Of a DNA stretch of 64,000 nt, positions 2,717-40,973 are shown piece after piece (position 1 is the stretch's first letter; each line of letters begins with the position of its first letter). The notes under the pieces are model-generated. The model was not told the origin of the DNA and searched no databases. It saw only the letters and a list, made by a program, of their open reading frames with translations. A program made the position numbers and the translations under genes. Source of the stretch: Demequina soli (GTDB taxonomy: Bacteria; Actinomycetota; Actinomycetes; Actinomycetales; Demequinaceae); the NCBI RefSeq assembly GCF_000971195.1, contig NZ_BBLZ01000003.1:395642-459641 (forward strand), read 5' to 3'.

Positions 2717-3838
2717 GTGAAGGTCGCGCTGGTCGCAGAGTCGTTCCTGCCGCACACGAACGGCGTCACGCATTCGCTCCTGCGGGTGCTCGATCACCTC
2801 GCCGCCCGCGGCGACGAGGCGGTCGTCATCGCCCCCGAGGCGCCCGGTGCCCCCGAGGCCGTCGCGGGCGCCCCCGTCATTCACGTCCCCGCCGTCGGCT
2901 GGCCTGGCTATCGCGACGTCCGGGTCGCGCTGTCGACGGTGCGGCGGCTCACCCGGCTGCTCGACGAGGTGCGTCCCGACGTGGTCCACCTCGCGTCGCC
3001 GTTCATGCTGGGCTGGGCCGCCGTGCGCGCCGCCGCGGACCTCGGGCTGCCGACGGTCGCGGTCTACCAGACCGACGTGCCGTCCTACGCGGCGTCGTAC
3101 CGCGCGCCCTGGGGCGAGCCGCTGCTGTGGGCGCGCGTGCGCCAGATCCACGCCGCGGCGGACCTCACGCTCGCGCCGTCGACCGCCGCGATGGGCCAGC
3201 TCGCATCGCTCGGCGTCGACAGGCTCCGGCTGTGGCCGCGCGGCGTCGACACGGCGCGCTTCTCTCCCGCGCATCGGGACGATGCGCTGCGGGCCGCGTG
3301 GGCGCCCGGCGGCGAGGTGGTGGTCGGGTACGTGGGCCGGCTCGCGGCCGAGAAGCGCGTCGGGGACCTCGCCCGGCTGTCCCGGATCCCCGGGGTGCGG
3401 CTGGTCGTCATCGGCGAGGGGCCCGAGGGGCCCCGCCTGCGGCGCGCGATGCCGGACGCGGCCTTCGCGGGCTTCCTCGGCGGCGGCGAGCTCGCGCGCG
3501 CCGTCGCGAGCCTCGACGTGATGGTCCACCCGGGCGAGCTCGAGACCTTCGGGCAGTCCATCCAGGAGGCGCTCGCGTCGGGCGTCCCGGTGGTGGCACC
3601 GCGCCGCGGGGGACCGATCGACCTCGTCGAGCACGGTACGAACGGCTTCCTCTACGCTCCCGGGCGGCTCGATCACCTCGAGGACGCCGTCGCGTCGCTG
3701 GTCGCGCAGGAGGACATGCGCTGGCTCCAGGGCGCCCACGCGCGGGTCTCGGTCGAGGGCCGCACGTGGCCGCGCGTGTGCGAGGCGCTCGTGCGCCACT
3801 ACGAGGCCGCGATCGCGGCGCGGGCGGTGACGCGATGA
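2717..3838 (+). CDS. GT4 glycosyltransferase, GDP-mannose-dependent alpha-mannosyltransferase type (MgtA/PimB-like)
   Basis: This 373-residue cytosolic GT-B enzyme opens with VKVALVAESFLPHTNGVTHSLLRVL, the N-terminus of actinobacterial mannosyltransferases that act on glycolipids. The C-terminal nucleotide-sugar half holds GYVGRLAAEKRV, ELETFGQSIQEALASGVPVVAP and the E-x7-E motif typical of GT4 enzymes. I start at the GTG because conserved sequence begins there, although the frame stays open far upstream. Its stop overlaps the next glycosyltransferase ATG (ATGA). It probably elongates mannolipids such as phosphatidylinositol mannosides or a diacylglycerol-based glycolipid. The acceptor is inferred from family membership. 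Confidence 0.85.
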   Translation: MKVALVAESFLPHTNGVTHSLLRVLDHLAARGDEAVVIAPEAPGAPEAVAGAPVIHVPAVGWPGYRDVRVALSTVRRLTRLLDEVRPDVVHLASPFMLGWAAVRAAADLGLPTVAVYQTDVPSYAASYRAPWGEPLLWARVRQIHAAADLTLAPSTAAMGQLASLGVDRLRLWPRGVDTARFSPAHRDDALRAAWAPGGEVVVGYVGRLAAEKRVGDLARLSRIPGVRLVVIGEGPEGPRLRRAMPDAAFAGFLGGGELARAVASLDVMVHPGELETFGQSIQEALASGVPVVAPRRGGPIDLVEHGTNGFLYAPGRLDHLEDAVASLVAQEDMRWLQGAHARVSVEGRTWPRVCEALVRHYEAAIAARAVTR

Positions 3839-4959
3839 GGATCGCCCAGGTCGCGAACTTCCACGGCCCCCGTTCGGGCGGGCTGCGCACCGCGCTGCAC
3901 GCGCTCGGGAGGGGCTACGTGGAAGCGGGCGACGACGTGCTCCTGGTGGTCCCCGGCGACCACGACGGGGTCCGCGACACCCCGCACGGGCGCGTCCTCA
4001 CGCTCCACAGCCCGCCCCTGCCCGGCAGCGGCGGCTACCGCGTGCTCACGCGGCTCGGCGCGGTCGAGGACGCGCTCACCGCCTTCGCGCCCGACGCGCT
4101 CGAGGTGTCGGACCGCACCACGCTGACGGGCCTCGGCACGTGGGCCCGCGCGCGCGGCATCCCCGCCGCGTTCGTCGCGCACGAGCGCGTCGACGGGCTC
4201 CTCCGGGAGGCGCTGCCACGCCTCCCGGAGGCCACGGTCGCGCGCCTGGCCGACGCGCACGCGCGCCGCATCGCCGGCCGCTTCGACACCCTCGTCGCGA
4301 CGACCGCGTTCGCGGGCGAGGAGCTCGCCCGGGTCGGCGCGCCCGTCGAGACCGTGCCGCTCGGCGTCGACCTCGACCGCTTCCACCCGCGTCACGCGAG
4401 CGCCGCCACGCGCCGCGCCCACGCCCCCGACCACGCGCCCCTGCTCGTGCTCGCCTCGCGGCTGTCGCGCGAGAAGCGGCCCGGGCTCGCGATCGACGCG
4501 GTCCGCGTGCTCGCCGCGCGGGGCCGGCCGGTGCGGCTCGCCGTGGCGGGCGACGGGCCGGCCGCCGGGCGCGTGCGCCGAGCCGCCGCCGGCCTCGACG
4601 TCGAGCTGCTCGGCTTCGTGTCCGACCGCGCCGCGTTCGCCGCCCTGCTCGCGAGCGCGGACGTCGCGGTCGCCCCCGGACCCATCGAGACGTTCGGGCT
4701 CGCCGCGCTCGAGGCGCTCGCGTCCGGCACCCCGGTCGTCGTGAACGCCGCCTCGGCCCTGCCCGAGGTCGTGGGTGACGCGGGGCTCGCCGCCGCGGGC
4801 ACCCCCGAGGCGTTCGCGGACGCGATCGAGCGCCTGCTCGCGCGCGACGCCCGGGAGCGCCGCCTCGCGGCGCGGGCCCGCGCGGTCGCGTTCCCGTGGT
4901 CCGCGTCCGTCGCCCGCATGCGCGCGCTCCACGCGCGGAGCCTGGCGGGCGTGCCGTGA
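3835..4959 (+). CDS. GT4 glycosyltransferase, second enzyme of the pair
   Basis: The product is 374 residues and has a GT-B fold. The N-terminus MRIAQVANFHGPRSGGLRTALHAL resembles the same mannosyltransferase group as its neighbour but is clearly diverged. The donor-binding half shows LASRLSREKRPGLAIDAV and GPIETFGLAALEALASGTPVVVN, with the two Glu of the E-x7-E motif. It overlaps the upstream transferase by 4 bp and the downstream SGNH hydrolase by 4 bp, so the three genes form a tightly coupled operon that probably builds and trims or acylates one cell-envelope glycoconjugate. Donor and acceptor are not visible in the sequence. Confidence 0.85.
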   Translation: MRIAQVANFHGPRSGGLRTALHALGRGYVEAGDDVLLVVPGDHDGVRDTPHGRVLTLHSPPLPGSGGYRVLTRLGAVEDALTAFAPDALEVSDRTTLTGLGTWARARGIPAAFVAHERVDGLLREALPRLPEATVARLADAHARRIAGRFDTLVATTAFAGEELARVGAPVETVPLGVDLDRFHPRHASAATRRAHAPDHAPLLVLASRLSREKRPGLAIDAVRVLAARGRPVRLAVAGDGPAAGRVRRAAAGLDVELLGFVSDRAAFAALLASADVAVAPGPIETFGLAALEALASGTPVVVNAASALPEVVGDAGLAAAGTPEAFADAIERLLARDARERRLAARARAVAFPWSASVARMRALHARSLAGVP

Positions 4960-5750
4960 CCGGGCCGCGCATCGTCGCGCTGGGCGACTCCATCACGCTC
5001 GGCGTCGGCGACGGGGTCCAGCACGCGCGCGGCGACGTCGGCTGGGCGGCGCTCGCCGCGGCAGCGCTCGGCGCCTCAACTTTCGTCAACCTCGCCGCCA
5101 ACGGGGTGCGGGCCCGCGACCTGCACCAGGTCCAGGTGCCGCGCGCGCTCGCCGCGCGCCCCGACATCGTCCTCCTCACGGCGGGCGGCAACGACGTGCT
5201 GCGCGGCGACTTCTCCCCCGCCGAGGTCGAGCGCGCCCTCGGCGCGTGCCTCGACGCCCTCGCCGGGCCCGGGCGGCGCCTCGTCACGGTGTCGCTCGAC
5301 CGCATCGGCCTGTTCGACCTCGTGCCCCGCCGGGTCGGCGACGCCATGGCGCGTCGCATCGGCCTCGCGAACGCGGCGATCGCGCGCGCCGTCGCGCCGC
5401 GAGACGTCGCCGTGATCGACGGCGCGACGTTGCTCGCCGGCCTGGGCCGCGGCGCGTGGCACATCGACCGCATCCACCCGTCGCCGGCCGGGCATCGCGC
5501 GCTCGCCCGGGCCGCCGTCGACCTGGTCGCGCCCGACTGGCCCGCGCGGGGCCCCGTCCCTCCGCCGCCCCCGGCGCCCGGGCGCGCCGCGGTCGCGGCC
5601 TGGCTCGCGGTCAACGGCGTGCCGTGGGCGCTCAAGCGCAGCCGGGACCTCATCCCTCAGGTCACGCGGGTGGTCGCGCACGAGCTGCGCGAGGAGCGTG
5701 CGGAGCGCGCCGGGCGCCGCTCCGCGGGCCGGGCGCGGGCCGACGCCTGA
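4956..5750 (+). CDS. SGNH/GDSL-family esterase
   Basis: This 264-residue protein begins VTGPRIVALGDSITLGVGDG, which is block I of SGNH hydrolases with the nucleophile Ser in GDS. Block III is GGNDVL, and the catalytic Asp and His lie in DRIHPSPAGH. No signal peptide is seen, so it acts in the cytosol or at the inner membrane face. The GTG start overlaps the preceding stop (GTGA). Its place behind two glycolipid-type glycosyltransferases suggests a deacylation or acyl-transfer step on the same product. The C-terminal 60 residues are basic and variable. Confidence 0.85.
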   Translation: MTGPRIVALGDSITLGVGDGVQHARGDVGWAALAAAALGASTFVNLAANGVRARDLHQVQVPRALAARPDIVLLTAGGNDVLRGDFSPAEVERALGACLDALAGPGRRLVTVSLDRIGLFDLVPRRVGDAMARRIGLANAAIARAVAPRDVAVIDGATLLAGLGRGAWHIDRIHPSPAGHRALARAAVDLVAPDWPARGPVPPPPPAPGRAAVAAWLAVNGVPWALKRSRDLIPQVTRVVAHELREERAERAGRRSAGRARADA

Positions 5751-5769
5751 CCGGGCCCGGACACGACGA

Positions 5770-5793
5770 GGGCGGGACCCGAAGGCCCCGCCC
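5770..5793 (-). terminator. Terminator hairpin between the SGNH and DoxX-like genes
   Basis: GGGCGGG and CCCGCCC arms, plus an inner CC/GG, enclose a CGAA-type tetraloop. It lies just past the stop of the reverse-strand DoxX-like gene and 20 bp past the forward SGNH stop, so it can serve both converging transcripts. No strong T-run follows. Confidence 0.5.
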
Positions 5794-5810
5794 CGCGTGC
5801 GCGCGACGCG

Positions 5811-6386
5811 CTAGACCAGCCAGCTCTTCTCGCCGACGAGGCCACGCCACCACTTCCCGATGCCGATGGTCTGGTGCTCGAGCTCCAGGTACACCGCGGA
5901 GAAGATGGCCAGGATGTAGATGATGTGCTCGTCGAACAGGGGGTTGGTCGACGGGAACATCTGCGTCATGTACATGAACAGCAGCATGAGGCCGCCGGCC
6001 CACGCCGCGACCTTGGTGCCGATGCCGAGCATGAGCGCGAGACCGACGCCCAGCAGGCCGAGCATGAACGGCCAGTCGGTCCACCGGTCGGCGCCCAGGT
6101 TGACGAAGAAGTCGTGGAACGGGCTGTTCACGTTGCCCGCGTACACGAGGTAGCCCTCGGTGACGTGCCCGCCCTTGACCCACGCGCTGTCGCACAGGGT
6201 GGAGATGGAGTAGCTGCCGTCGTCGTTCGTGGTGCGACACGTGGAGTACCCCAGGCCCAGGAGCTTGTCCAGGAAGGCCCAGAGGAAGTAGAAGCCCAGC
6301 ACGATGCGCGTCAGGCTCAACATGACCCAGCCGAACTTGCTGCCCGTCTGACTGGTCGTGGTGGTGGTCGGTTCGGTGCTGCTCAT
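5811..6386 (-). CDS. DoxX-like membrane protein, copy 2 of a tandem pair
   Basis: This 191-residue protein has a short Thr/Ser-rich N-terminus, TM1 (WVMLSLTRIVLGFYFLWAFLDKLL, about 20-43), a roughly 55-residue outside loop with two Cys (STCRT, TLCDSAW), then three more membrane helices ending in FDEHIIYILAIFSAVYLEL. It is about 60% identical by eye to the preceding gene and shares motifs such as VTEGYLVY and NSPFHDFFVNLG. I chose the second of two adjacent ATGs because it sits 5 nt from a clear AGGAGG. DoxX proteins are linked to thiosulphate:quinone oxidation or to redox-stress membrane complexes. The exact role here is unknown. Confidence 0.8.
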   Translation of the reverse strand: MSSTEPTTTTTSQTGSKFGWVMLSLTRIVLGFYFLWAFLDKLLGLGYSTCRTTNDDGSYSISTLCDSAWVKGGHVTEGYLVYAGNVNSPFHDFFVNLGADRWTDWPFMLGLLGVGLALMLGIGTKVAAWAGGLMLLFMYMTQMFPSTNPLFDEHIIYILAIFSAVYLELEHQTIGIGKWWRGLVGEKSWLV

Positions 6387-6528
6387 CATTGCCTCCTGGG
6401 GATGCGATGCGGTGCGGTCCGAGGCCCTTGGCCCCACGGACGCCGTTGTCCGCACCGCCCACGCTACGCCGGATCGCGCATCGTCGCTGGAAGCGGACGA
6501 AAACGCGGGCCGCCTCGGGGGAAGCACA

Positions 6529-6559
6529 ACGGGGCCCCGCGGATCGCGCGGGGCCCCGT
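6529..6559 (-). terminator. Strong hairpin after the first DoxX-like gene
   Basis: Perfect 13-bp arms (ACGGGGCCCCGCG and its complement) surround a 5-nt loop, beginning 17 bp beyond the stop. It probably ends or attenuates the first doxX transcript before the second copy. Confidence 0.6.
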
Positions 6560-6575
6560 GAGCACTGCAGGGAGG

Positions 6576-7160
6576 CTAGACCAGCCAGGCGTTCTTCTGC
6601 ACGATGGGGAGCTTCCTCCACCAGGTGCCGAGCCCGACGTCCTGACGGGCGAGCTCGACGTGCACGATGCCGAGGATCGCGACGATGTAGATGATGTGCT
6701 CGTCGAGGATCGGGTTGGTGGCGGGCCACATCTGCGTCATGTACATGAAGAGCAGCATGAGCATCGAGGACCAGGCGGCGACGCGGGTGCCGATGCCGAG
6801 CATGAGGGCCAGGCCGATGCCGAGCAGGCCGAGCATGAAGATCCAGTCGGTCCAGCGCTGCGCGCCGAGGTTCACGAAGAAGTCGTGGAACGGGCTGTTG
6901 GTGTTGCCGCCGTAGACCAGGTAGCCCTCGGTGACGTGGCCGCCGTTGATCCACGCCTTGTCGCAGAACGCGTCGATGGTGACGGCGCCGCTCTCCGCGA
7001 CGGTGCGGCAGGTCGAGAACCCGAGGCCCAGAAGCTTGTCGAGGAAGGCCCACAGGAAGTAGAAGCCGAGCCCGATGCGGGTGACGCTGAGCATGACCCA
7101 GCCGAGCTTGCTTCCAGTGGTGGCGGTCGCGCTCTCGGCGACCTGCGAGTTGACTGCCAT
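6576..7160 (-). CDS. DoxX-like membrane protein, copy 1 of a tandem pair
   Basis: The product is 194 residues with the same layout as the next gene: N-terminal soluble tail, TM1 near 20-44, an exterior loop with two Cys (STCRTVAE, AFCDKAW) and the GGHVTEGYLVYGGNTNSPFHDFF block, then three helices including MLGLLGIGLALMLGIGTRV and the DEHIIYIVAIL helix. AAAGGAG sits 8 nt before the ATG. A perfect GGGAC-N4-GTCCC box lies 90 bp upstream with a TAGCGT -10 between, which suggests control by the DosR-like regulator found at 51.4-52.1 kb. Catalysis is not established. Membrane-bound redox or quinone chemistry is the family expectation. Confidence 0.8.
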   Translation of the reverse strand: MAVNSQVAESATATTGSKLGWVMLSVTRIGLGFYFLWAFLDKLLGLGFSTCRTVAESGAVTIDAFCDKAWINGGHVTEGYLVYGGNTNSPFHDFFVNLGAQRWTDWIFMLGLLGIGLALMLGIGTRVAAWSSMLMLLFMYMTQMWPATNPILDEHIIYIVAILGIVHVELARQDVGLGTWWRKLPIVQKNAWLV

Positions 7161-7220
7161 TGTCGTTCTCCTTTGTCGCGGACCTTGTGGGCCCTGGGCA
7201 CCGGGGTAGCGCCTACGAGA

Positions 7221-7263
7221 ACGCTATGGCCGCGACATCACCGCTGGCAGGGACCAGGGTCCC
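7221..7263 (-). promoter_or_regulatory. Candidate DosR box and -10 upstream of the doxX pair
   Basis: GGGACCAGGGTCCC (7250-7263) has the arms and 4-bp spacing of the DosR/DevR box core. On the reverse strand it is followed after 23 bp by TAGCGT (7226-7221), a plausible -10, with no convincing -35 between, as expected for an activator-dependent promoter. The same arrangement recurs upstream of cydA. Confidence 0.5.
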
Positions 7264-7277
7264 AGATTCATGCGCAG

Positions 7278-7856
7278 TCATGGGAATTGTGCGGACAGGT
7301 GCGCCTCGACCGCCGCGACCATGTCCACCGACGGGTCCAGCAGCCACTGGACCTGGAGCCCATCCATGACCGCGACGAGCTGCGCGGCCGCCAGGCCGGC
7401 CCCTCCGACGGGCTCGCGCGCGCCGTCCTCGACGGCCTCGCGGTAGGCCCGCGCGACGGCCGCGCGCAGGTTCGCGTAGCGGCGCGCGAAGTACGCGTGG
7501 GCGGGATGGCCCGCGTCCGTCGCCTCGGCGGACAGGGTCGCGTAGAGGGAGACGATGCCGGGGCGGCCGACGTTGCGCCTCACCGTCGCGACGAGCTCGT
7601 CGAGCAGCGCCCGCCCGCGCAGCTCGTCGAAGCTGACGGCGCGACCCTCGGTGTCGTCGCGGCGCTCGAGGACGGCCATGAGCAGCGCCGCCTTGGTCGG
7701 GAAGTGGTAGATCAGCGCCGGGTGGGTCAGCCCGCAGCGCGCCGCGATCTCGCGCACCGAGGTGCCCTGGAAGCCCGCCTCGGCGAACGCCTGGGTCGCC
7801 GTGTCGAGGATGTGCTCGCGCGTGGCCCCGCCGCGGTCCGACAGCTCTCTCGCCAT
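7278..7856 (-). CDS. TetR-family transcriptional regulator
   Basis: The product is 192 residues from the chosen ATG (MARELSDRGGATREHIL), which sits the usual distance before the helix-turn-helix. A longer form from 7901 is possible. The HTH is IAARCGLTHPALIYHFPTKAALLMAVLE, typical TetR, and the C-terminal ligand domain is unassigned. It is transcribed away from the GH3 glycosidase gene, and a TACCA-TG-TGGTA palindrome lies in the shared gap. It is therefore likely the local repressor of the glycosidase/MFS operon. The inducer is unknown. A LacI-type regulator would be more usual for such sugar genes. Confidence 0.85.
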   Translation of the reverse strand: MARELSDRGGATREHILDTATQAFAEAGFQGTSVREIAARCGLTHPALIYHFPTKAALLMAVLERRDDTEGRAVSFDELRGRALLDELVATVRRNVGRPGIVSLYATLSAEATDAGHPAHAYFARRYANLRAAVARAYREAVEDGAREPVGGAGLAAAQLVAVMDGLQVQWLLDPSVDMVAAVEAHLSAQFP

Positions 7857-36835: not shown

Positions 36836-36949
36836 GTCTATTCCTCGTGAAACTCGTTGGTACGACCCCGAATGAGGTCGGATTTCCTGCCGCAGCCGCT
36901 CCCGATGAGGGCGCAGGCAGGGCCTCAGCGCTCGACGCGCCGACGTACA

Positions 36950-36979
36950 AATGTACCCGCTGCACACCTCGCCGGTCAA
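36950..36979 (-). promoter_or_regulatory. Sigma-70-type promoter of rplU-rpmA
   Basis: TTGACC (36979-36974), an 18-bp spacer and TACATT (36955-36950), with transcription expected near 36943, about 108 nt before the rplU ATG. Confidence 0.65.
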
Positions 36980-37232
36980 ACCGGGCGTGTCACCCGCGGA
37001 CGCCGTCGGGACGGCCCGTCCGACACTGCCAACGGATCTCTCCGCGACACGCCGTCGCCGGCGTGTCCGGGCTTCACTCTACCGCCCCCGCCGCTCTTGC
37101 CGAGCGGGGACCGGTGCGCGCGAGTCACGGCGACTCACCCCGGTCCGCCGCAAGTGAACCCGGGGTAACGCTCAGATGAATGTCACCCAGAGGCACTTGC
37201 TGCATTACCAGGGAAATCGGAAACTCGAGCCA

Positions 37233-37250
37233 CTGGCGGCAATCCGCCAG
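37233..37250 (+). promoter_or_regulatory. Leader hairpin before the small secreted protein gene
   Basis: Perfect 7-bp arms CTGGCGG/CCGCCAG enclose the loop CAAT, 12 bp before the AAAGGGA ribosome binding site. It could affect translation or RNA stability. Confidence 0.4.
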
Positions 37251-37274
37251 CACGCGGATCAAAGGGAGTCTGCC

Positions 37275-37595
37275 ATGAGGAAGGTCGTCGAGGTCATCGC
37301 GCCCCTTGCCGTCGGCGCAGCGCTGGTGCTGGGCGTCGCGGCACCAGCGAGCGCCTACGCGGGCGCAGAGCAAGGCACCAAGTACTGCACTGAGGACAGC
37401 CCTGTGGCCACGAAGATCCGTGCCGACGGCACGCACTCCCACACCCAGCGCAACTACACGTCCGTCTTCTCGGACTACGGCTACGTTCACTACAGCTACA
37501 AGGGCTGGGGCTTCGCGTCCGCGTCGTACTACCTCACCGGCGGGATCGGCTACTTCTCGTACACGGACTCCAGTGCCTACTGCGCTGCTGACTGA
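37275..37595 (+). CDS. Small secreted two-cysteine, aromatic-rich protein
   Basis: This 106-residue protein has a clear signal peptide (MRKVVEVIAPLAVGAALVLGVAAPASA, cleavage before YAG). The mature part is about 79 residues, with one Cys near each end (KYC, AYC), which allows a disulphide. It is rich in Tyr, Ser and Gly (YTSVFSDYGYVHYSYKGWGFASASYYLTGG). AAAGGGA precedes the ATG. I do not recognise a family. It lies immediately ahead of a lipoprotein, a peptidoglycan-binding adaptor and an ABC exporter, a setting that resembles bacteriocin operons such as lactococcin 972 types, but the sequence match is too weak to assign. Confidence 0.7.
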   Translation: MRKVVEVIAPLAVGAALVLGVAAPASAYAGAEQGTKYCTEDSPVATKIRADGTHSHTQRNYTSVFSDYGYVHYSYKGWGFASASYYLTGGIGYFSYTDSSAYCAAD

Positions 37596-37641
37596 TCCGG
37601 GGCCCGGCGCCCACCTGATCGCCCGCAGCCGTGAGCGTTCC

Positions 37642-38136
37642 ATGCTCGCGGCTGCGGCTGTGGTCGTCGCCCTCGCGCTCACAGGGTGCACGCACGCCCC
37701 AGTGCCGGTGACGGACTCCGGCACCCTGTCACCCGCTGCCGGCGCGGTCCACCAGGTCGCGGACCGCTACGACGCGATCTACTCCTGCATGGTGGACCGC
37801 GGCCTGCCGATCACCATTGAGAATGGCGGCTACTCCTACGACAACACGGTGCTCGACCAAGGCACCATCGACGCGACCTTCGACACGTGCGAGAGCGAAC
37901 TCATGTCCTCCGGCGAGATCGGCGCCGATCCTCTCGACGACCCGGCGTATCTCAGCGCGGTCTTCGACGATCTCCTGGTTCAGGCCGAGTGTCTGGTTTC
38001 ACACGGCTACCCCGTAGATGAACCGCCGTCGCGCGAGGCATGGATCGACTCGAAGGGAGCGGTGTGGAGCCCGTTCGACGCCGTCGCCGACGGCACCGTC
38101 GAGACGCTCGCCGAGGCGGAGTCCGCATGCCTGTAG
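37642..38136 (+). CDS. Putative lipoprotein with conserved-looking Cys residues
   Basis: About 164 residues. The N-terminus is hydrophobic (MLAAAAVVVALALTGC) and ends in an L-T-G-C lipobox. The mature protein contains paired Cys (YSCMVDRGL, DTCESEL, AECLVSHGY, ESACL) and is acidic. The chosen ATG leaves the signal peptide without a basic n-region. The frame is open back into the previous gene, and a CTG about nine codons upstream would add LIARSRERS, so the start is uncertain. No function is recognised. It may be an immunity or accessory lipoprotein for the secreted protein (inference). Confidence 0.65.
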   Translation: MLAAAAVVVALALTGCTHAPVPVTDSGTLSPAAGAVHQVADRYDAIYSCMVDRGLPITIENGGYSYDNTVLDQGTIDATFDTCESELMSSGEIGADPLDDPAYLSAVFDDLLVQAECLVSHGYPVDEPPSREAWIDSKGAVWSPFDAVADGTVETLAEAESACL

Positions 38137-38152
38137 AGCGAAGGACCGTCAG

Positions 38153-39199
38153 GTGAGACGCCGCATCGCGGCGGCCACGGTGTGGCTCGCGTCGGTCGCG
38201 ATGGTCTCCGTTCTCACGTGGTCCGCGACCGAGCGCGCGCTCGCCTCCGAACCTGCGGGCCACGCGGACGACGCTTCGGTGACCGCGGTGGTGGCCGAGG
38301 GAACGGTGAGCCGCGAGATCCCCGCGACGGCGACGTTGACCTGGCCGGTTATGGCGGAGGTCCAGGCGGGCGCGGACGGTGTGGTCACGCGTCGAGTCGA
38401 CGCTATCGCGGCAGACCAGGGGTCGACGCTCGCTTGGGTAGACGAGCGCCCCATCGTCGTCGCACTCGGCGACGTGCCGATGTACCGTCAGCTGTCGGTG
38501 GGCACGCACGGTCGCGACGTCGAGCAGCTGCAGCGCCTGCTCGTCGAGATCGGCGCGCTCGCCGCCGACGGGGGGATCGACGGAGTGTTCGGCGCGTCGA
38601 CCGCGACCGCAGTGGAACGCTGGGAACGCGCGCTGGGTGGTGCCGCACCCGCGGATGGCGTCGTCGACCTGGGGCAGGTCGTGTTCGTTCCACAGCTGCC
38701 GGCCTCGTTCGCGCCGACGGCGGATCTCTCGGTCGGAGTACGCCTCGCAGCCGGCGAGCCGATCGGGGCCATCCGCGCCTCGACACCCGTGCTGACCATC
38801 CTGACCGAAGGCGACGTCGCACCGACGTTCCGGGTCGGCATGACGGTCAGCGCGGCGACGCCCGCGGGAGATGTCGCGGGCTCCCTCGGTCAGCCCGAGA
38901 AGACCGACGAGGGGCAGACGCGCATCCCGGTCGAGCTCGCGGACCACTGTGCGGCGCAGTGCGCCGACATCGCCGATGGAGCCCAGCTCGCTGTTGTGAT
39001 CCAGGTGGTCTCGCCCGTCACGGGCGCGTGCGTACCGGTCGGCGCGATCCGCCAGGATGCCGTCGGCGAGACGTTCGTCATCACCGCGACCGGGGCGAGG
39101 CAGCGGGTGACGGTCCTGGCAGCGGACCGCGGCGTCGCCGTGGTCGAGGGCGTCGCGATCGGCACCACCGTGGTGCTAGCCGAGGTCGGCGCGTCATGA
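38153..39199 (+). CDS. Membrane-anchored efflux adaptor with peptidoglycan-binding domain
   Basis: The product is 348 residues. One N-terminal membrane helix (about 4-25) is followed by an outside region that begins like a MacA/HlyD-type adaptor (AEGTVSREIPATATLTWPVMAEVQAGADGVVTRRV). It then carries a peptidoglycan-binding domain 1 (about residues 103-160; LSVGTHGRDVEQLQRLLVEIGALAADGGIDGVFGASTATAVERWERAL) inserted before the C-terminal beta-barrel. It would link the ABC exporter to the cell wall. The GTG start follows the lipoprotein by 16 bp, and its end overlaps the ATPase gene by 4 bp. Confidence 0.82.
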   Translation: MRRRIAAATVWLASVAMVSVLTWSATERALASEPAGHADDASVTAVVAEGTVSREIPATATLTWPVMAEVQAGADGVVTRRVDAIAADQGSTLAWVDERPIVVALGDVPMYRQLSVGTHGRDVEQLQRLLVEIGALAADGGIDGVFGASTATAVERWERALGGAAPADGVVDLGQVVFVPQLPASFAPTADLSVGVRLAAGEPIGAIRASTPVLTILTEGDVAPTFRVGMTVSAATPAGDVAGSLGQPEKTDEGQTRIPVELADHCAAQCADIADGAQLAVVIQVVSPVTGACVPVGAIRQDAVGETFVITATGARQRVTVLAADRGVAVVEGVAIGTTVVLAEVGAS

Positions 39200-39867
39200 T
39201 CGCCCTGCGCGACGTCACCTTCCAGTACCGCTCGGACTCCACCCCCGTACTCGATGGGGTCGACCTCACGCTCGCGCCCGGTGCGCTCACCGCGCTGCGG
39301 GGTCCCTCCGGATGCGGCAAGTCGACGCTCATGTACCTCTGCGGACTCATGCTGACGCCGCAAGATGGGGAGGTCCTGCTGAACGGACGTACTGTCTCAC
39401 ACCTGCCGGACCGGCATCGCAGCCGACTGCGCGCCGCGTCCATCGGCTTCGTCTTCCAGGATGCGATGCTCGACACCACGAGGTCGGTGATCGACAACGT
39501 GACCGAGGGCGCGGCCTTCACCGGCCGCGCCCCACGCGACATCGCGGCACGTGCCCACGCCCTGCTCGCCGAGTTCGAGCTGAGCGACCACGCGCGTGCA
39601 AAGGCGAGCTCACTGTCAGGCGGGCAGTCGCAACGCGTGGCGCTTTGCCGTGCGCTCGTCAAGGCGCCGACCGTGATCCTCGCCGACGAGCCGAGCGGAA
39701 ACCTTGACCGCGCGAACGGCGACCGCGTCGTGGACCGGCTCCGGGACGAGGCGCATCGTCACGGCACCAGCGTGCTCGTGGTGACCCACGACGACCGGCT
39801 CGCGGCAAGGTGTGACGCGTCCATCGAGTTCGAGGTACTCAGTGCGCACCGCTCGGCTGCTCCGTGA
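39196..39867 (+). CDS. ABC transporter ATP-binding protein, MacB/LolD type
   Basis: The product is 223 residues. Walker A is GPSGCGKST, the Q-loop is GFVFQDAML, the signature is SLSGGQSQRVALCRAL, Walker B is VILADEPSGNLD, and the H-loop is VVTHD. All catalytic elements are intact. Subfamily features fit the ATPases that drive FtsX-fold permeases (MacB, LolD), matching the next gene. It overlaps both neighbours, so stoichiometric synthesis is likely. Confidence 0.92.
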   Translation: MIALRDVTFQYRSDSTPVLDGVDLTLAPGALTALRGPSGCGKSTLMYLCGLMLTPQDGEVLLNGRTVSHLPDRHRSRLRAASIGFVFQDAMLDTTRSVIDNVTEGAAFTGRAPRDIAARAHALLAEFELSDHARAKASSLSGGQSQRVALCRALVKAPTVILADEPSGNLDRANGDRVVDRLRDEAHRHGTSVLVVTHDDRLAARCDASIEFEVLSAHRSAAP

Positions 39868-40912
39868 AGCGTGGCGCGCGGCCGTGGCCGCGCGCGTGAT
39901 GTCGGCCCTGGTGCTCCTGGTCGTGGCCGCGGCGCTCGTGTCGGCGGCGCTCACCTCGGGCCGCGCCGAGGTCGCGGCCGCCCGCGTTGCCGACGAGCTC
40001 GACTCCCCAGAGTTCCGGGTGACGGTCGTCTCCACCGAGTCCGCCGTCACCATCTCGCGTCTGGCGCTCGAGACCTACGCAGCGCGTTCCGACGTGGATG
40101 TCGTCGTCGCCGTCGGCGACGCGGTGGACATGAGACCGACCGTGCTGGGTGGCGGAGGCGCTCCTGTCCCCGTGCGCGAGGTGGCCCTGGCGGGAGCAGA
40201 ACCGACGCTGATCGCCTTCCCCGGAGGCGGTTTGCCGGGGCTCTACATGCCGTCCTCGGGTCGGGATGTCGCAATCCGCGAGTACGCGCGGCGAGACGGC
40301 GTCGGCATTCCGGTGGCCGGCACGTATCGAGCGGATGCGACCGCCTTCACATCGCTGGCCGGGTCGGGCCTCGTGCTGGACGACGACGAGCCGATCGAGG
40401 CGCGCGCGGTCTACGTCCTGGCACCCTCTCCGGCTCTGGCGGCCCGCCACGCGCTCGATGCCCCGGCGCTCTTCGGCGAGGCTGCGACCCAGGTCTCGAC
40501 CACCGCCGGTTCCCTTGAGTCGCATGAAGCGATCCGCGTCGAGGTCGATCGGTTCTCGCGCTACCTGGTGCTCGCGCTCGCAGGCGGCGGCGCGGCGCTG
40601 ATCGGCATCATCGTGGTGGTGTGGACGCTTCTCCGACAGCGCGACCTCGGGCGTCGCCGTGCGCTCGGCGCAACGCGAACGACAATCGTCGCCATCGCCA
40701 CCGCCCAGGTCGGCCTGCTCGCGGTCGGTGGCACCATGGTCGCGATGGTCACGCTCGGGATCGGCGCGGCGGCCGACGCGGTGAGCGCTCCGTCGGTGAC
40801 CTACCAGCTCGCGATCGGCTGGCTCCTCATAGTCGCCGCATCCGCCGCGACGGCGGTTCCCTCATGGGTGTTGAGCCTGCGAGATCCGGTACGCGTCCTG
40901 CGCCAACCTTGA
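39842..40912 (+). CDS. ABC transporter permease with FtsX-like domain
   Basis: The product is 356 residues. TM1 lies at about 15-38, then a roughly 200-residue outside domain, then three C-terminal helices. RQRDLGRRRALGATRTTIVAIATAQVGLLAVGG is the FtsX/MacB cytosolic coupling segment. The GTG start overlaps the ATPase gene by 26 bp. MacB-type systems do not carry substrate through the membrane but drive its release from the outer leaflet via the adaptor, which fits a secreted-protein or antimicrobial-peptide role. Confidence 0.83.
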   Translation: MRTARLLREAWRAAVAARVMSALVLLVVAAALVSAALTSGRAEVAAARVADELDSPEFRVTVVSTESAVTISRLALETYAARSDVDVVVAVGDAVDMRPTVLGGGGAPVPVREVALAGAEPTLIAFPGGGLPGLYMPSSGRDVAIREYARRDGVGIPVAGTYRADATAFTSLAGSGLVLDDDEPIEARAVYVLAPSPALAARHALDAPALFGEAATQVSTTAGSLESHEAIRVEVDRFSRYLVLALAGGGAALIGIIVVVWTLLRQRDLGRRRALGATRTTIVAIATAQVGLLAVGGTMVAMVTLGIGAAADAVSAPSVTYQLAIGWLLIVAASAATAVPSWVLSLRDPVRVLRQP

Positions 40913-40923
40913 CGGACACGCGT

Positions 40924-40953
40924 CGAGGCGCGCCCCTCGCGGGACGCGCCTCG
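40924..40953. terminator. Bidirectional terminator between the ABC operon and rne
   Basis: Perfect 9-bp arms CGAGGCGCG/CGCGCCTCG with a 12-nt loop, 11 bp after the permease stop and 20 bp after the converging rne stop. Confidence 0.6.
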
Positions 40954-40973
40954 TTCATGATGCGTGGACGGGC

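Follow-up and report, generated by a model that had tools for sequence, protein, structure and literature searches.

A secreted two-cysteine peptide, a lipoprotein and a MacAB-like transporter in Demequina soli: a putative mobile bacteriocin-immunity cassette

Closest described systems and the make-up of the module

Small proteins encoded next to an adaptor, an ATPase and a permease have been described in bacteriocin immunity. In the enterocin AS-48/MR10 group, the first gene of mr10EFGH codes for a protein of 163 aa whose function is unknown and the other three for an adaptor, an ATPase and a permease, and Mr10EFGH and As-48EFGH are described as conferring immunity and cross-resistance (PMC8306556); the E component was reported to track the enterocin, and F, G and H to track the species (PMC10598978). 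In Bacillus, YknWXYZ was reported to protect from SDP, a secreted peptide with one disulphide (PMC4887032), and purified YknX to bind peptidoglycan (PMC5985334). Here, we analyzed a module of five collinear plus-strand genes in Demequina soli (37275-40912), located within a 64,000-nucleotide stretch of contig NZ_BBLZ01000003.1 (the window), which encodes a secreted peptide, a lipoprotein, an adaptor, an ABC ATPase and a MacB/FtsX-type permease. It is probably a mobile bacteriocin-like cassette with a presumably toxic peptide, the lipoprotein and pump being its putative immunity apparatus; a bacteriocin or toxin accompanied by immunity functions was the best-supported of the readings considered.

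The peptide gene (37275-37595) codes for a small secreted protein of 106 aa, a putative bacteriocin, with a signal peptide ending in ASA, about 79 mature residues, and Cys38 and Cys103 near the two ends. When 18 sequences were aligned, mean column identity was 27%, the Cys after the signal peptide was invariant, and a Trp and the C-terminal Cys were nearly so. The second gene (37642-38136) encodes a lipoprotein of 164 aa with the lipobox LTGC, the putative specificity/immunity component; across an alignment of 31 sequences, the lipobox Cys and four other Cys were invariant, alongside a P-S motif and a nearly invariant Trp. Both the signal-cleavage site of the peptide and the lipobox are assigned by motif.

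No family was found in Pfam or NCBIfam for the window peptide or its 18 aligned relatives; the best hits were single-member matches (E of 0.02 or worse) taken as chance, as was the best match of the peptide profile in the PDB (E 0.12). A weak peptide match in another genome (G019; E=0.003, residues 4-58, mostly signal peptide) gave no profile match on rescanning. For the lipoprotein, no family exceeded its cut-off in the same two libraries: the weak matches (E 0.0025 or worse, each in at most two of the 31 members) and the best PDB hit of the profile (E 0.044) were ascribed to chance, and those of the window copy itself all lay under the curated cut-offs. Judged from their sequences, the peptide and the lipoprotein would constitute two new families, each alignable as such.

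Further downstream follow a membrane-fusion adaptor of 348 aa (38153-39199), an ABC ATPase of 223 aa of the FtsE/LolD/MacB class (39196-39867; ABC_tran, E=3.5e-30) and a MacB-type permease of 356 aa (39842-40912), with overlaps of 4 nt (adaptor/ATPase) and 26 nt (ATPase/permease). In Pfam, residues 120-172 of the adaptor matched PG_binding_1 (E=1.8e-7). The adaptor profile (23 relatives) matched, among PDB structures, the MexC-like (5.1e-7), ZneB (8.5e-5) and MacA (0.0075) adaptors at positions 17-108 and peptidoglycan-binding domains at about 119-173; the part C-terminal to this domain found no match in that search, and a single-sequence structure model (mean pLDDT 41.3) was not used. The best NCBIfam relatives of the ATPase were FtsE, LolD, YbbA and DevA, with MacB also among them, all below their curated cut-offs; against TIGR03608 (L_ocin_972_ABC) it scored 152.1 bits, under the cut-off of 254.85. 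The permease profile (21 members) matched MacB (5gko, E=3.8e-9) and the permease 5xu1 (E=4.1e-9) as well as YtrF and LolF structures, and FtsX was detected at E<=0.01 in 20 of the 21 members, the sole exception being the window copy (E=0.62). In its ATPase class, permease fold class and membrane-fusion adaptor, the transporter is of the MacAB/YknXYZ type. The adaptors also bear a conserved Cys pair (Cys266 invariant and Cys270 nearly so in the adaptor alignment, window numbering), so that conserved Cys residues occur in three extracytoplasmic parts of the module. All this bears out an earlier, sequence-only reading of the window, which had placed five collinear genes at these positions, the last three overlapping, and had described a secreted peptide of about 79 residues with a Cys near each end and of no recognised family, together with a MacA-like, peptidoglycan-binding adaptor and a MacB-type transporter.

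The order of lipoprotein, adaptor, ATPase and permease is that of the enterocin AS-48/MR10 EFGH genes, a likeness of layout in which the bacteriocin on the window side is a presumed one; E is reported to vary with the bacteriocin, and lipoproteins of the window type track the peptide weakly. Unlike the circular or leaderless, saposin-like enterocins, the window peptide is a Sec-type protein with two Cys that gave no match to a saposin-like family, slot E is occupied by a lipoprotein with four further Cys, and the adaptor possesses PG_binding_1. The module resembles YknWXYZ in being a MacAB-like set of adaptor, ATPase and permease from a Gram-positive bacterium, but YknW is reported to be a Yip1-family protein (PMC4887032), whereas its counterpart here is a lipoprotein. 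Library scans revealed no family link of the window peptide to SdpC. To our knowledge, the ykn genes do not stand in a cassette with the SDP toxin gene. A lipoprotein and an ABC transporter, LanI and LanFEG, also make up the two-part immunity to lantibiotics; unlike that system, the module has no lanthionine-synthesis gene among its five, its transporter is of a different class and an adaptor is present. In open-access literature on lactococcin 972 in actinobacteria, on Demequina and on Clavibacter bacteriocins, no such system was named among the matches listed.

Joint conservation, divergence and natural loss of the peptide gene

Conservation was assessed in 46 core loci (lipoprotein profile E of about 1e-17 or better), made up of 40 of 57 neighbourhoods, four phylum-level loci (L130-L133), a plasmid copy and the window. 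Four of the 57 neighbourhoods (L082, L083, L093, L094) had no adaptor match on re-searching and were excluded from the counts, and two core loci are cut by contig ends, leaving 44 uncut. In 23 of these, the lipoprotein gene is immediately preceded on its own strand by a secreted two-Cys ORF, L072 having two such pairs; the ORF lies elsewhere in the locus in six (L054, L055, L066, L067, L079, L080) and is broken in three, by an in-frame stop (L015), a frame change (L050) or a missing second Cys (L073). As a background, ORFs recognised by the peptide rule occurred at about 0.02 per kb and strand away from lipoproteins, and at about 0.01 per searched interval. When the lipoprotein profile was run against 396 genomes of the phylum, four new strong matches appeared (one in G512, three in G729; E<=1e-19), all with transporter genes within about 3 kb and with the peptide present; in L133 the permease would fall outside the fetched piece, and the matches in the window and in G047 were not independent, both being part of the query profile. 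The sequence-only reading had made its proposal hang on the small protein not belonging to a known non-toxin family and on the genes being conserved together. The peptide falls into no known family, and the sets recur in tens of loci; the arrangement is therefore not due to chance.

Within this conserved set, the placement of the peptide-lipoprotein pair varies. It is found before the transporter, after it (the Clavibacter plasmid and L131) or on the opposite strand (L047, L072, L132); multiple peptide-lipoprotein copies occur in L072 and L078, and tandem lipoproteins in L045, L074 and L075. In L078 (1959-7771; G282), a single transporter has around it what appears to be a remnant of a peptide gene, an intact pair and, downstream, a second and partly broken pair. 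In L073 (2836-6178; G384), no ATPase was matched and the peptide lacks its second Cys.

We compared the divergence of the five proteins in 12 complete systems, L060 being left out as no permease was matched there. Mean pairwise identity was 24% for the peptide, 27% for the lipoprotein, 35% for both the adaptor and the permease, and 51% for the ATPase, and peptide similarity correlated with lipoprotein similarity once that of the transporter had been removed (partial Mantel r=0.30, P=0.023). Peptide and lipoprotein thus diverge fastest and, weakly, together. On a tree of the transporter (37 rows: 22 with the peptide, 12 without, three unscored), peptide presence or absence changed 12 times. Loss of the peptide as a single lineage event was considered and rejected, the 12 changes being no fewer than in shuffles.

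One pair of loci captures such a difference. L071 and L077 share 92.4% identity across the stretch that spans lipoprotein to permease and 78% upstream of it, and L077 is about 300 bp shorter precisely at the position of the peptide gene of L071, its lipoprotein having a different signal sequence. The retained genes contain no stops, and dN/dS was 0.07 for the lipoprotein, 0.29 for the adaptor, 0.075 for the ATPase and 0.16 for the permease. The simplest reading is that L077 is an immune non-producer, which has lost the peptide and keeps the rest under purifying selection.

These copies bear on the possibility that the transporter exports or releases the peptide, Sec delivering it to the gap between membrane and wall and the MacAB-like pump driving it through the peptidoglycan. 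MacB homologues are described as able to export protein-like molecules (PMC5985334), the peptidoglycan-binding domain of the adaptor would suit a conduit through the wall, and the genes are clustered. However, the peptide has a signal peptide of its own, this scheme leaves no obvious place for the lipoprotein, and lipoprotein and transporter are kept in peptide-less copies (12 of the 44 uncut core loci), in one of them with dN/dS of 0.07-0.29. We consider export by the pump unlikely.

In a wider parent family from other actinobacteria (L134-L137, L139-L145), medium-strength lipoprotein matches stand next to an adaptor, an ATPase and, as permease, a longer one of the MacB type; no peptide was recognised, and not all parts were matched in each locus. 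The lipoprotein and pump can thus exist without a peptide and can serve something else, which speaks against a peptide that is a subunit of the pump. L138 of G664, with a lipoprotein match at E=1.7e-13, is intermediate between the core and parent types; its ORF under the peptide rule seems to change frame, and it is in neither count. The lipoproteins of the parent-type clusters (L134-L145) contain two CMRxxG-like repeats, and ORFs upstream of some of these clusters appear to resemble two-component systems.

Lactococcin 972 loci with the same gene order

Lactococcin 972, a bacteriocin reported to bind lipid II (PMC9964109), offered a second line of comparison. A search of 396 genomes of the order for its family, PF09683, gave 24 loci, spread over 21 genomes, of which that of the window is not one. 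In two of these 24 loci (L222 of G287, 3651-7562; L224 of G243, 3983-7716), genes for a lipoprotein, adaptor and ATPase and a permease-like ORF come after the lactococcin 972 gene, in the same order as in the window. Both peptides exceed the PF09683 cut-off. For G287 and G243, respectively, the adaptors matched at E=6.8e-24 and 8.4e-17 and the lipoproteins, only weakly, at E=8.7e-10 and 9.4e-5; both lipoproteins align all five family Cys, as do all 33 sequences. The permease-like ORFs (355 and 374 aa) had no match to the permease profile at E<=1e-4, FtsX reaching E=0.012 for one of them. Unlike these two loci, the window has a peptide without a PF09683 match and an adaptor with PG_binding_1, a domain that Pfam did not detect in the adaptors of G287 and G243.

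A lipoprotein-pump set of the same kind thus accompanies a recognised bacteriocin family elsewhere, which strengthens the bacteriocin-immunity reading. The window peptide itself was tried as a lactococcin 972 and rejected, since neither it nor its 18 aligned relatives matched PF09683. In line with this, hhalign of the mature-peptide profile against a profile of 16 lactococcin 972 sequences returned a probability of 0.2%. A peptide profile that included the signal peptide retrieved four ORFs of lactococcin 972 loci (E 1.7e-6 to 1.9e-4), and a mature-only profile none of these four at E<=0.5. Three lactococcin 972 ORFs (L187, L189 and L190, in G175, G190 and G251) have one Cys near the mature start and one close to the C-terminus, a layout like that of the window peptide; between their mature parts and the window peptide no profile similarity was detected.

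The lactococcin 972 loci of G287 and G243 speak to another alternative, in which the peptide is a signal or ligand sensed by the lipoprotein and the ABC transporter, as in antimicrobial-peptide sensing of the BceAB type. The lipoprotein could be a receptor, the linked divergence described above would fit a ligand-receptor pair, and MacB-like ABC systems are reported to act in sensing too (PMC5985334). Nevertheless, neither Pfam nor NCBIfam identified a kinase or a regulator among the five genes, the distribution is patchy (lipoprotein and adaptor together in three of 44 genomes of the genus), a sensor surviving without its ligand, as in L077, is less expected, and elsewhere a bacteriocin family occupies the very slot of the peptide. 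Sensing is, in our view, improbable.

Mobility of the cassette and its proposed role

The module is flanked by rplU and rng, two minus-strand genes, and is transcribed against these neighbours. In blastn comparisons with a relative (G006, L152), homology breaks off after 37091 and starts again at 40913, the two blocks being 44 bp apart in that genome, so that the module and its 5' non-coding stretch (37092-40912) represent a 3.82-kb insertion. GC3 was 0.84-0.87 in the module vs. 0.89-0.98 in the four adjoining genes. The peptide gene is preceded by AAAGGGAG (37261-37268, plus strand; direct reading), a motif that resembles a ribosome-binding site.

rplU was detected in all 44 genomes of the genus, and 30 returned loci were examined. 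The end of rng lies within 0.9 kb of rplU in 27 of them, once at a small negative distance; the others are the window, G008 and G014. In the latter two, a gene for a 252-aa secreted protein and a 330-aa ORF, presumably transposase-like, occupy the site and no module gene was matched; among the 29 other genus genomes examined, none has the module there. The interval (36836-40973 in the window) is variable in the genus, holding a secreted-protein, a transposase-like or an approximately 163-aa gene in G008, G014, G015, G019 and G021. A hairpin at the junction (about 40924-40954) is common to some module-less relatives, with self-complementary matches in L147, L150, L152, L196 and L201. The sequence-only reading had let the module end in a terminator, but the hairpin is present at this site in G006, G008 and G042, which lack the module, and hence belongs to the site; a scan for T-run terminators after the permease did not flag it.

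Within the order, 46 of 396 genomes contain an adaptor match (E<=1e-10). Of 47 family genomes, four have the lipoprotein, the G028 copy with a stop codon, and six the adaptor (E<=1e-6); besides the window, G022 and G037 have the two together. The G037 module (L015, 2546-6449) seems decayed, with an in-frame stop in the peptide and with adaptor and permease split over frames, unless these are sequencing errors. In a tree of joined adaptor, ATPase and permease sequences, a quick tree with a tool warning on the long branch of the window, the modules of the window and of G022 were not sisters (p-AU 0.031), and four divergent modules of a single genome, G047, took three separate positions. Another copy resides on a Clavibacter plasmid (NZ_CP083440.1, L207), where it was found with the adaptor; plasmid searches with the peptide and with the permease found nothing, and genome-contig scans with the adaptor and with the permease found no relatives. 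The PLSDB gene table of this plasmid (4808-6785 and 8570-10628 of L207) includes the ATPase and permease, without ORFs for adaptor, peptide and lipoprotein.

This distribution can be set against a general role in envelope maintenance or in multidrug efflux, in which antagonism would play no part and the small protein would be an accessory protein of the wall. Such a role would agree with the peptide-less parent family in several other actinobacterial genomes, and LolCDE and FtsEX are counted among the relatives of MacB (PMC5985334). For a maintenance system, however, an insertion-type distribution, a plasmid copy and four divergent copies in one genome would be atypical, as would the fast divergence and the 12 changes in peptide presence, and we hold this role to be quite improbable. 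A patchy, mobile set at a variable chromosomal site is also what might be expected of an anti-phage or other defence module. PADLOC models lent no support to the peptide-sensing defence that the sequence-only reading had offered as its second option: only the ABC protein matched, through its ATPase domain (best mad3, E=7e-26), and no cytoplasmic effector is encoded among the five genes. Defence thus appears highly improbable.

Several observations weigh against a bacteriocin with its immunity apparatus. No sequence tie connects the peptide to a known toxin, and its fold is of no help, the single-sequence structure model (mean pLDDT 39.9) being too poor for comparison and not used. Of the 24 lactococcin 972 loci, 20 yielded no more than an ATPase of this class downstream and two yielded nothing there (L217, and L220, which lies at the end of a contig), and the toxicity of actinobacterial lactococcin 972 members is itself presumed. 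The peptide was not recognised in 12 of the 44 uncut core loci, where "absent" may mean "not recognised", nor in parent-type loci, none of 16 having an ORF under the peptide rule. That rule was framed after peptides had been seen, so that the count is a description with a background rate and not a blind test, and at least one false ORF came under it (L065, presumably a regulator fragment; the locus was scored absent). In the same 12 systems, the similarity of the peptides follows that of the transporters too (r=0.29, P=0.023), which, with so few systems, makes the partial Mantel signal weak. Lastly, dS is uneven among the genes of L071 and L077 (0.11-0.39), and recombination may therefore be involved there.

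On balance, of the bacteriocin with release and immunity functions proposed from the sequence, the immunity part gains from the conserved set and the lactococcin 972 loci, and the release part loses ground to the peptide's own signal peptide and to the peptide-less transporters. In the mechanism that we propose, the peptide would be exported by Sec and cut after ASA, and its two Cys would presumably be joined by a single disulphide within a domain of about 79 residues rich in Ser, Thr, Tyr and Gly. The mature peptide would act on the envelope of related bacteria, and the lipoprotein on the membrane of the producer would recognise the cognate peptide. The ATPase and permease would form a MacB-type pump, which the adaptor would connect to the wall by way of the peptidoglycan-binding domain. 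Acting jointly, lipoprotein and pump would hold the peptide away from the membrane of the producer and drive it outward.

Beyond this locus, we see about an even chance that the module represents an unnamed class of Sec-exported two-Cys bacteriocins across Actinomycetota, each with its own immunity lipoprotein and wall-reaching MacAB-like pump. Peptide-lipoprotein pairs would be exchanged, duplicated and lost around a conserved pump that also serves lactococcin 972 peptides, that is, a general immunity platform with swappable specificity cassettes. The role of the adaptor and of the small fourth component in Gram-positive MacAB-like pumps would become testable, given an adaptor with a peptidoglycan-binding domain and a fourth component that appears to track the peptide, and the natural peptide-less copy predicts an immune non-producer. 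If true, actinobacteria would hold a new, genome-minable family of secreted, ribosomally made antibacterial proteins with matched immunity lipoproteins.

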